Assembly (NCBI RefSeq): GCF_946480305.1
Contig: NZ_CAMLJQ010000019.1
Location: forward strand, 13,501-77,500
DNA from: an uncultured Caldimonas sp.
GTDB lineage: Bacteria; Pseudomonadota; Gammaproteobacteria; Burkholderiales; Burkholderiaceae
DNA length: 64,000 nt
Direction: 5' to 3'
In this document: one piece after another, positions 8,965 to 10,939 of the stretch
How positions within the stretch are numbered: the stretch's first letter is position 1
Layout: every line of letters begins with the position of its first letter
The notes under the pieces: generated by a model
Databases searched by the model: none
What the model was told of the DNA's origin: nothing
Seen by the model: only the letters and a program-made list of their open reading frames with translations
Program-made: the position numbers and the translations under genes

Positions 8965-9459
8965 ATGTCCGAAGATCCGCCGCCGCCCCCTGCACCACGC
9001 CCTCCGCCCGACCCGGCGGTGCTGGAGCGTGCCGAGCGCGTCAACAACGACCTGATGAAGTTCGTGCGCCAGGTGCGCACGGCCACGGGGCCGGTGCGCG
9101 CCAAGCTGCAGCAGGACATGCGCGCGCGGCTCGAGGCCGAGCGCGCCGCGCTGCTCGGCGGGCGGCACGTGCTGCCCGAGACGCTGCGCCACTATGCGGT
9201 GACCTTCACCGAGGTGCAGTGGATGCTCGATGCGTGGATCGAAGCCACCGAGCGCAACAAGGACGACCAGGAGTACCGCCGCGATTTCGTCGACGTGGCG
9301 ACCCGCATGCTCGGTGAACTCGAGGTGCTGCGGCAGCCCGACCCGGCGCTCGATCCGCCCGGGCGCCGCCCCGGCTGGTGGTCGGCCATCACCCGCGGCC
9401 TGCGCCCCGGCGAGGCCCCGGACGCGCGAGACCCCGGCGATCCGGACCTGGTCATTTGA
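8965..9459 (+). CDS. Hypothetical acidic, Pro-rich-ended protein
   Basis: A 164-residue soluble protein with a Pro-rich start (PPPPPAPRPPPDP), a helical middle (residues 20-125, many Glu/Arg/Leu) and an Asp/Pro-rich end. There is no signal peptide or membrane segment, and I do not recognise the family. ATG 8965 has only a weak ribosome site, so the start is uncertain. Codon use matches the neighbours. Confidence 0.7.
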   Translation: MSEDPPPPPAPRPPPDPAVLERAERVNNDLMKFVRQVRTATGPVRAKLQQDMRARLEAERAALLGGRHVLPETLRHYAVTFTEVQWMLDAWIEATERNKDDQEYRRDFVDVATRMLGELEVLRQPDPALDPPGRRPGWWSAITRGLRPGEAPDARDPGDPDLVI

Positions 9460-9469
9460 CCCACCCCTA

Positions 9470-9532
9470 CGGCCTTCGGCCGCCCCTCGAGGGGCGACGC
9501 TGACGGACCGGCGAAGCCGGATCCGTGGCGTC
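9470..9532. repeat. Three-hairpin intergenic palindromic element
   Basis: Just after the stop at 9459 lie CGGCC-TTC-GGCCG (9470-9482), a perfect 16-bp palindrome CGCCCCTCGAGGGGCG (9481-9496), and a long hairpin at 9496-9532 with arms GACGC, ACGGA, CCGGC against GCCGG, TCCGT, GCGTC around a GAA loop. There is no T-run, so it is not a simple intrinsic terminator. The build resembles REP-type elements of betaproteobacteria, but only one copy is seen here. Confidence 0.6.
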
Positions 9533-9574
9533 ACTCGGGCGGAGCCGTTGCTGATCGTGCGGTTGCTTGTGCGC

Positions 9575-9605
9575 TTGACGCGCTGTGGCGGGTGCGTGCT
9601 ACATT
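9575..9605 (+). promoter_or_regulatory. Candidate promoter for the aroG leader
   Basis: TTGACG at 9575-9580 matches a -35 box. TGCTACATT at 9597-9605 reads as an extended -10 (TG-N-TACATT). The 19-base spacing is long but tolerable with an extended -10. The predicted start of transcription, about 9611-9613, coincides with the ATG of the leader peptide, which has no ribosome site; the leader could therefore be read from a leaderless RNA. Confidence 0.5.
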
Positions 9606-9612
9606 ACCGCCC

Positions 9613-9690
9613 ATGCTTCGCGCAGCCCGCTTCTTCTTCTTTTACTTTTGGTTCTCGCACCGCACCGGCGGAGGAGAGGCAAGCGCGTAA
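9613..9690 (+). CDS. aroG leader peptide (25 aa, aromatic-rich)
   Basis: A 25-codon frame from ATG 9613 to TAA 9690. Codons 7-14 read FFFFYFWF, so six Phe plus one Tyr and one Trp codon occur in a row, in a genome where Phe/Tyr/Trp runs are rare. It sits 130 bases before aroG, is followed by mutually exclusive RNA hairpins, and has the build of the PheL-type attenuation peptides. Shortage of charged tRNA for any of the three aromatic amino acids, chiefly Phe, would stall the ribosome at 9631-9654. No Shine-Dalgarno site is seen; an in-frame GTG at 9592 is a second possible start. Confidence 0.8.
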   Translation: MLRAARFFFFYFWFSHRTGGGEASA

Positions 9691-9726
9691 CCGAAGACGA
9701 GCGAACCGAATCCGAGAAACCGCCGG
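9665..9726 (+). promoter_or_regulatory. Antiterminator pairing of the aroG attenuator
   Basis: CCGGCGG at 9665-9671, inside the leader frame, is perfectly complementary to CCGCCGG at 9720-9726, which is also the 5' arm of the terminator. A ribosome stalled on the Phe/Tyr/Trp codons leaves 9665-9671 free to form this antiterminator. A ribosome that reaches the stop at 9690 covers it, and the terminator forms instead. Confidence 0.75.
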
Positions 9727-9749
9727 CAGTGCCCGGCGGTTTTTTTTTT
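9717..9749 (+). terminator. Attenuator terminator before aroG
   Basis: A perfect 10-bp stem AAACCGCCGG / CCGGCGGTTT with a six-base loop (CAGTGC) is followed by an unbroken run of ten T (9740-9749). It lies between the leader peptide and aroG, with no other gene start between, so it must act on aroG transcription itself. Confidence 0.88.
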
Positions 9750-9820
9750 GCCCCGGCGCCCGTCTCGAGAAGCAGGAACGCTCCCCCTCAACGACACACA
9801 CCGATAGGAGCCCGAGTCCC

Positions 9821-10939
9821 ATGAACGCCAAGTCCACCAGCGCCGTCGAGGGTTGGTATGCGCCGATCGACAAGACCTCGCAGACCGACGACGAAAGGAT
9901 CAAGGACGTGACCCCGCTGCCGCCGCCGGAGCACCTGATCCGCTTCTTCCCCATCCGGGGCACCTCGGTCGAGACGCTGGTGGGCGACACGCGCCAGCAC
10001 ATCCGCAAGATCATGAACCACAAGGACGACCGGTTGCTGGTCGTCATCGGGCCGTGTTCCATCCACGATCCGGCCGCCGCGGTGGACTACGCGCGGCGCC
10101 TGCTGGTGCAGCGCGAGAAGTACGCCGGCACGCTGGAGATCGTGATGCGCGTGTACTTCGAGAAGCCGCGCACCACGGTCGGCTGGAAGGGGCTGATCAA
10201 CGACCCCTACCTCGACGAGAGCTACCGCATCGACGAAGGCCTGCGCATCGCGCGCCAGCTGCTGATCGACATCAACCGCCTCGGGATGCCGGCCGGCAGC
10301 GAGTTCCTCGACGTGATCTCGCCGCAGTACATCGGCGACCTGATTGCCTGGGGCGCGATCGGTGCGCGCACCACGGAAAGCCAGGTACATCGCGAACTGG
10401 CCTCCGGCATCTCGGCGCCGATCGGCTTCAAGAACGGCACCGACGGCAACATCAAGATCGCGACCGACGCGATCCAGGCTGCGGGCCGCCCGCACCACTT
10501 CCTGTCGGTGCACAAGAACGGGCAGGTGGCGATCGTCGAGACCAAGGGCAACAAGGACTGCCACGTGATCCTGCGCGGCGGCAAGGCGCCGAACTATGAC
10601 GCGCAAAGCGTCGAGGCGGCCTGCCGTGACCTCGAGGCGGCCAAGCTGCCGTGCTCGCTGATGGTGGACTGCTCGCATGCCAACTCCAGCAAGCAGCATG
10701 AGCGCCAGATCGACGTGGCGCGCGACATCGCCGGTCAGATCGCTGGAGGCTCCAAGCGCGTCTTCGGCGTGATGGTGGAAAGCCACCTGCACGGCGGCGC
10801 CCAGAAGTTCACGCCTGGGAAGGACGACCCGCGCAAGCTGGAATACGGCAAGAGCATCACCGATGCCTGTATCGGCTGGGACGACTCGCTCGAGGTGCTC
10901 GAGGTGTTGTCGAACGCTGTGAAGCGCCGTCGCGGCTGA
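9821..10939 (+). CDS. aroG: 3-deoxy-7-phosphoheptulonate (DAHP) synthase, class I
   Basis: Condenses phosphoenolpyruvate and erythrose-4-phosphate in the first step of the shikimate pathway to Phe, Tyr and Trp; cytosolic. The 372-residue protein has the AroF/G/H blocks: VVIGPCSIHDP (PEP and metal), YFEKPRTTVGWKGL, GFKNGTDG, and VDCSHANSSK near the metal-binding end. ATG 9821 has TAGGAG ten bases upstream. Whether it is the Phe-, Tyr- or Trp-inhibited isozyme cannot be told with confidence. The aromatic leader upstream implies transcriptional attenuation by charged aromatic tRNAs. Confidence 0.95.
   Translation: MNAKSTSAVEGWYAPIDKTSQTDDERIKDVTPLPPPEHLIRFFPIRGTSVETLVGDTRQHIRKIMNHKDDRLLVVIGPCSIHDPAAAVDYARRLLVQREKYAGTLEIVMRVYFEKPRTTVGWKGLINDPYLDESYRIDEGLRIARQLLIDINRLGMPAGSEFLDVISPQYIGDLIAWGAIGARTTESQVHRELASGISAPIGFKNGTDGNIKIATDAIQAAGRPHHFLSVHKNGQVAIVETKGNKDCHVILRGGKAPNYDAQSVEAACRDLEAAKLPCSLMVDCSHANSSKQHERQIDVARDIAGQIAGGSKRVFGVMVESHLHGGAQKFTPGKDDPRKLEYGKSITDACIGWDDSLEVLEVLSNAVKRRRG

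Follow-up and report, generated by a model that had tools for sequence, protein, structure and literature searches.

A putative ribosome-mediated attenuator with a tri-aromatic leader peptide upstream of aroG in Burkholderiales

Background

Does the short reading frame that precedes the DAHP synthase gene aroG, with its uninterrupted run of aromatic codons, set the transcription of this gene by the supply of aromatic amino acids, and if so, of which ones? The question is raised by a stretch of 64,000 nucleotides from an uncultured Caldimonas sp. (hereafter the window, i.e. the whole stretch of DNA that was analysed; positions refer to it, and the parts of the putative attenuator and aroG lie on its plus strand). 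An initial annotation had recognized in this locus the logic of pheA and trp attenuation, sensing chiefly phenylalanine. Our comparative data make us highly confident, as far as an argument from sequence can, that the leader belongs to a transcription attenuator that works through the ribosome, as trpL and pheL do, and in which the charging of tRNA-Phe, tRNA-Tyr and tRNA-Trp would jointly determine how far aroG is transcribed.

Results and Discussion

The leader and its competing pairings

The gene aroG (9821..10939) encodes a type I DAHP synthase of 372 amino acids, which scores 529.2 bits with TIGR00034 (aroFGH; curated cut-off 173.2) and 311 bits with PF00793, and does not reach the cut-off of NF006723, a narrower AroG model (546 vs. 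568); the motif AGGAG at 9806..9810 reads as its Shine-Dalgarno sequence. Upstream of it lies a leader ORF (9613..9690; ATG at 9613, TAA at 9688-9690) with the predicted peptide MLRAARFFFFYFWFSHRTGGGEASA, and the 25-codon frame with FFFFYFWF at codons 7-14 (9631..9654), as originally described, is borne out to the base. Among 2041 start-to-stop frames of 10-60 amino acids on both strands of the window, nested starts being counted apart, only this leader (counted twice, with two starts) holds eight aromatic residues in eight, and the runner-up holds five in eight. The peptide has no match in NCBIfam or Pfam.

Segment 2 (CCGGCGG, 9665..9671), the 5' arm of the antiterminator, lies within the leader. 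Segment 3 (9717..9726) is the 5' arm of the terminator and can pair through 9720-9726 (CCGCCGG) either with segment 2 or with 9733-9739 (CCGGCGG) in segment 4, which together with the T run occupies 9733..9749. Both 7-bp pairings are exact and mutually exclusive, as had been claimed. The terminator stem of 10 bp (9717-9726 with 9733-9742) also holds, whereas the ten T said to follow it (9740-9749) do not all do so: three lie within the stem and seven after it. The terminator hairpin is given by both the folding program and our own script. The MFE structure of 9605-9750 (-53.1 kcal/mol; z -1.68 against shuffles, of which 10/200 fold as well) holds the terminator and a separate upstream hairpin; in this structure a local hairpin 1:2 (9660..9671; 9660-9663 with 9668-9671) would sequester segment 2. 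A purine-rich box AGGAGAG follows directly 3' of segment 2 (9672..9678), and its GAGAG is found in most close relatives. The leader and its competing segments are thereby confirmed, and an antiterminator and a terminator, both exact in the window, stand between leader and gene as in an attenuator. A consensus scan of 9440-9840 listed neither a terminator nor a sigma-70 promoter; the scanner may have missed the terminator because the stem that it assumes takes up too many T.

Near relatives and spread over the order

The best 80 of 590 confirmed stretches from the named genomes that were scanned (80-85% protein identity) served as the nearest aroG loci. In 79 of them a frame upstream of the gene carries a run of aromatic residues, in most cases closed by YFWF; the leader of L006 lies at 1332-1403. 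The exception is L072, whose contig ends 178 nt before aroG. By eye, this stretch directly 5' of the gene (L072:1-178), which holds no leader, looks like the 3' terminus of a group II intron. In each of the 79 rows scored (78 loci and the window; L062, whose match starts inside the leader region, and L072 are left out), a terminator separates the leader from aroG, and the leader itself contains a stretch of 5-10 nt complementary to the 5' arm of this terminator. Alignment A1 of 44 rows contains as conserved blocks TGCTACATT 5' of the ATG, the aromatic codons, CGGCGG..GAGAG and the terminator. The RNAalifold consensus of the alignment retained only the terminator stem, and the antiterminator was therefore judged by scripts. 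Aromatic codons, register, antiterminator and terminator are kept together upstream of aroG orthologues, with broken pairs in single rows; the opposite pattern, a terminator kept where the aromatic codons or the competing pairing are lost, was looked for in the orthologues, and the outcome does not refute the reading.

An even sample of 399 genomes was taken from the order to which a Rhizobacter genome belongs. The covariance model R1, built from the 44 aligned rows, matched 97 of them, and in all 30 loci fetched from these 97 matches an aroG gene is preceded by an aromatic leader. A separate search for AroG in the first 160 sampled genomes found it in 124; 130 upstream regions from 110 of these 124 (the 30 loci and 100 fetched stretches) were read, leaving out 14 AroG-bearing genomes with only more distant matches, as well as further matches. 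An ATG frame with at least five aromatic residues in eight occurs in 37 of the 130 regions, compared to 1/130 reverse complements and 6/2600 block shuffles at the same score. Three of these frames (L192, L228, L233) were judged to be chance, and two R1 matches were added, L218 (score 4) and L156 (GTG start; not among the 128 leaders analysed below), which gives an aromatic leader in 36 of 130 regions or 36 of 110 genomes. Such a leader was not seen upstream of aroG in the other 74 of the 110 genomes read, so that the device appears widespread but patchy. In distant loci the leader peptides are much altered (MSAKFYFYFFWHLKPLADREG, MSLRAPHWFFFGFFLPLAEGIDRRC) and the architecture is retained. At class level R1 matched 7 of 369 genomes. 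All seven matches precede a DAHP synthase gene, and the encoded enzymes share 60-85% identity with that of the window.

The repertoire of DAHP synthases bears on what such a leader may control. Among the 36 leader-bearing genomes of the order sample, 22 have one TIGR00034 enzyme over the cut-off and 14 have two; a PF01474 enzyme is present in a single genome, one of these 14. None of the 22 genomes with a single TIGR00034 enzyme has a PF01474 enzyme or a TIGR01361 enzyme over the cut-off. Weaker TIGR01361 matches, which are presumably mostly KdsA, are found in 21 of the 22, the strongest (in G119) reaching 203 bits against a cut-off of 268. Given this single enzyme in 22 of 36 genomes, it is plausible that one enzyme is gated by three products. 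Two arrangements deserve separate mention: tandem aroG-type genes occur at G028:C1:2636369-2638526 and G158:C1:2562486-2564623, where one leader may control both genes, and genome G164 has two AroG copies, of which the one closer to that of the window (77%; L127, G164:C15) is without a leader and the other (63%; L150, G164:C170) has one.

The start of the leader transcript

An extended -10 element, TGC-TACATT (9597..9605), ends 7 nt before the leader ATG, with a spacing that is conserved in relatives; a possible, weak -35 element, TTGACG (9575..9580), lies 19 bp from it. In 103 of 125 leaders (L012, L065 and L099, for which an inner ATG had been picked, are excluded from this count) a hexamer TANNNT ends 6-9 nt 5' of the ATG, preceded in 94 of the 103 by the TG of an extended -10 element, and the other 56 spacings up to 59 have 24 occurrences altogether. 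The 22 leaders in which the hexamer is missing at 6-9 nt belong mostly to divergent loci. A Shine-Dalgarno-like word accompanies 2 of the 125 leader ATGs, compared to 60 of 69 aroG ATGs. Because the -10 element keeps this spacing to an ATG that almost never has a Shine-Dalgarno sequence, transcription very probably begins at or beside the leader ATG, and we are fairly confident that the leader is leaderless. Leaderless starts are documented for Burkholderia cenocepacia generally (PMC4603805). Several short GC-rich inverted repeats were seen by eye at 9465-9540, in the interval that separates the aroG promoter from the upstream frame (8965-9459).

Register of the stalled ribosome

The distance between the last aromatic codon and the GGCGG core of segment 2 is 8-12 nt in 116 of 128 leaders (the rows exclude L117 and L118, with core GGTGG, as well as L062 and the chance frames L192, L228 and L233). 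We modelled the equilibrium folding of the transcript as far as segment 3, masking the bases under a ribosome whose footprint was assumed to extend from -14 to +14 of the P site (+12 and +16 were also run), and scored the antiterminator as formed when over half of its seven pairs were present. In 31 close rows (every third of 91) and in all 37 divergent rows, the last codon at which a stall is still permissive was compared with the last aromatic codon. The two are at most one codon apart in 24/31 close and 34/37 divergent rows at +12, in 29/31 and 34/37 at +14, and in 29/31 and 33/37 at +16. At +14, modelled stalls at aromatic codons permit the pairing in 199/213 close and 247/268 divergent cases, compared to 157/484 and 165/567 for stalls at other codons. 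For the 71 rows that hold FWF (L055 is left out), the antiterminator is predicted to form in all 71 with the A site on Trp and in 61 with the A site on the last Phe, the codon after Trp; over the following codons the number drops to 35, 4 and 0. According to the fold model, a stall on the regulatory codons, those of the window included, would thus free segment 2, and a stall further downstream would not.

The initial annotation had placed segment 9665-9671 within the leader, free during a stall on the aromatic run and covered by a ribosome at the stop codon. Its position and its exposure at the aromatic stall agree with the sequence and the fold model; the stop-codon ribosome, however, would cover only 9671 with the footprint used. 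In the model of the window, segment 2 is withheld from segment 3 by the hairpin 9660-9663:9668-9671 and by ribosomes on codons 15-24, and the free RNA has 0.0 of 7 expected 2:3 pairs. Over 78 rows (77 loci and the window), less than half of the antiterminator is predicted to form in 43 when the RNA is free of ribosomes and in 32 when one sits at the stop codon. The 24 rows in which it would form in both states must therefore owe their off state to transit ribosomes or to kinetics.

Which amino acids are read

Phe is encoded in all 128 leaders, Tyr in 121 and Trp in 110, and all three are present in 106. These counts cast doubt on the earlier suggestion of a chiefly Phe-sensing device: since the leaders mostly contain Tyr and Trp besides Phe, the input is probably tri-aromatic, and a real response to all three amino acids is moderately likely to judge from the codons. 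An attenuator that responds to Phe only, with incidental Tyr and Trp codons, appears unlikely to us. It would accord with the excess of Phe in the runs (576 TTT and TTC codons vs. 221 TAT and TAC and 114 TGG) and with a few leaders that have only Phe before segment 2 (e.g. L134, L140 and L218), but it leaves the frequency of Tyr and of Trp, which has a single codon, without a role, and in close relatives Trp adjoins the very end of the run, where the modelled permissive stretch closes. Phe is written as TTT in 224 of 354 leader codons compared to 99 of 667 in the aroG genes behind them (79 close rows, from the window and L001-L080); this preference may reflect slower decoding or a run kept unstructured.

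Conservation of the pairings

At the base adjoining the core, segments 2, 3 and 4 read C/G/C in 86 of 128 rows and T/A/T in 16. At this variable position the 2:3 pairing is broken in 16 rows by script (15 without L099, which pairs) and the 3:4 pairing in 5. The core of segment 2 is GGCGG in 120 rows, seven have one mismatching core base, and L099 has GGTGG, its leader reading CCGGTGG as segment 2; the 128-row counts of pairing, register and frame may each be off by one owing to this locus. In L099, L117 and L118 the core GGTGG pairs with CCGCC only through G.U, and the terminator is intact. The 2:3 duplexes of the leaders themselves are more stable than swapped ones (-19.0 vs. -17.1 kcal/mol; 114 distinct rows; p 0.0002, uncorrected for kinship). 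On a tree of AroG (75 rows) the two states need at least four changes, of which strongly supported branches force two. In starred independent pairs 3:4 agrees in 4/4 and 2:3 in about 2/3, neither of which reaches 0.05. No independent pair was opposite in those two comparisons; in the reversed 2:3 comparison, a few of 200 random pairings included a single opposite pair. Covarying stems, proposed as a check on the reading, hence change in the right direction, but the independent changes are too few for significance after correction for the tree.

Codons, RNA motif and alternative readings

Relative to the leader, the segment 2 core lies in frame 0 in 79 rows, in frame 2 in 44 and in frame 1 in 5. 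Being read in all three frames, it is kept as RNA, whereas the aromatic run, which varies synonymously, is kept as codons. This distinction weighs on two further alternatives. One is nascent-peptide arrest, for which TnaC provides an example: the YFWF peptide itself, perhaps with a free ligand, would stall the ribosome instead of slow decoding. YFWF is indeed well kept in the nearest relatives, but over the order the motif shifts (e.g. FYFYFFWH, FFFGFF, FYFYFYG) with its register and aromatic content retained. This pattern suits codons better than an invariant arrest peptide and makes the alternative quite improbable. The other is an action in trans of the leader peptide or of the terminated RNA (about 135 nt), to which attenuation would be secondary. 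Such an action is reported for peTrpL/rnTrpL of Sinorhizobium meliloti (PMC7298713), and the terminated RNA would here be a leaderless mini-mRNA; the conserved RNA motif, though, encodes the C-terminus in three different frames, so that no C-terminal peptide is conserved, and we regard this explanation as very improbable. That an ordinary terminator of the upstream gene merely adjoins a chance frame deserves hardly any credence, since the scanner's silence on terminator and promoter is its one argument and the conservation with aroG, the register and the promoter spacing contradict it.

For the attenuator reading, which the codons, register, antiterminator and terminator kept in orthologues support as the extension of pheA/trp logic to aroG, we infer translation, stalling, termination and response to proceed as follows. 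RNA polymerase would start at or next to the leader ATG, and a ribosome would read the leader from the 5' end of the transcript. At any slow aromatic codon, the last one included, the ribosome would cover the 5' arm of the local hairpin (9660-9663) and not segment 2, which would be exposed and pair with segment 3 (9665-9671:9720-9726), so that the terminator would be blocked and aroG transcribed. With fast reading, ribosomes would pass over segment 2 or leave, segment 2 would be masked or locally folded, 9717-9726 would pair with 9733-9742, and transcription would end at the T run.

Comparison with known attenuators

The enterobacterial pheL-pheA attenuator consists of a Phe-rich leader ORF and a 2:3 antiterminator that competes with a 3:4 terminator. 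The aroG leader (compared here to RF01859) shares this anatomy before a gene of the aromatic pathway, but differs in that the gene is aroG, at the first step, that Tyr and Trp are also encoded and that the start is apparently leaderless. The thr (Thr and Ile) and ilvGMEDA (Leu, Val and Ile) attenuators likewise read several amino acids, with one leader for several products. They serve other pathways, whereas the aroG leader would serve three end products of one branched pathway at their common first step.

In Rfam, no family matches the window at its gathering score, and searches at E up to 10 gave only sub-threshold matches. The locus does not qualify as a member of RF01859 Phe_leader (16.5 bits vs. 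a gathering score of 55; E 2.5), and Ysr202, the minus-strand match with the lowest E-value (0.007; 17 bits vs. 315), was taken for chance.

The trpL RNA of S. meliloti begins with ATG (PMC7298713); it shares ribosome-mediated logic and a transcription start at the leader ATG with our leader, but reads Trp only, acts on trpE(G) and belongs to Alphaproteobacteria. Attenuation of another DAHP synthase gene, aroF, by tyrosine has been suggested according to a table in PMC2659441 (citing Camakaris 1980), in which the terminator and attenuator columns of Shewanella aroF are blank; that case would be Tyr-specific and gamma-proteobacterial. A regulon survey, in which TrpR regulons were reconstructed in eight lineages of gamma-proteobacteria, mentions attenuation for trp and pheA (PMC5343134). 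The available portions of PMC2965389, PMC4603805, PMC7298713, PMC1183508, PMC2659441, PMC1262725, PMC5343134 and PMC11878033 describe no aroG attenuator of Burkholderiales. In the literature searched, which mostly excludes subscription papers and may thus miss an earlier mention, the kind of device is known as trpL/pheL-type attenuation and its use on aroG was not found in print, in keeping with the initial remark that it is little described.

Conclusions

We lean slightly towards a broader reading, in which a leaderless tri-aromatic attenuator is a main and long-standing control over how Burkholderiales enter the shikimate pathway: a single DAHP synthase would be raised when any of Phe, Tyr or Trp is short, as a one-leader alternative to three amino-acid-specific isoenzymes under TyrR and TrpR. 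If the leader is indeed leaderless, its translation begins on a 5'-terminal AUG, and this step enters into the timing of attenuation. The loci also form a clean natural set for testing how the position of a stalled ribosome sets the decision, with the aromatic run conserved at the level of codons, segment 2 at that of the RNA whatever its frame, and the register to about one codon. To the known attenuators the finding adds one in which a single leader seems to read every end product of a branched pathway. For part of a large bacterial order, it also offers a concrete, testable account of the regulation of DAHP synthase.
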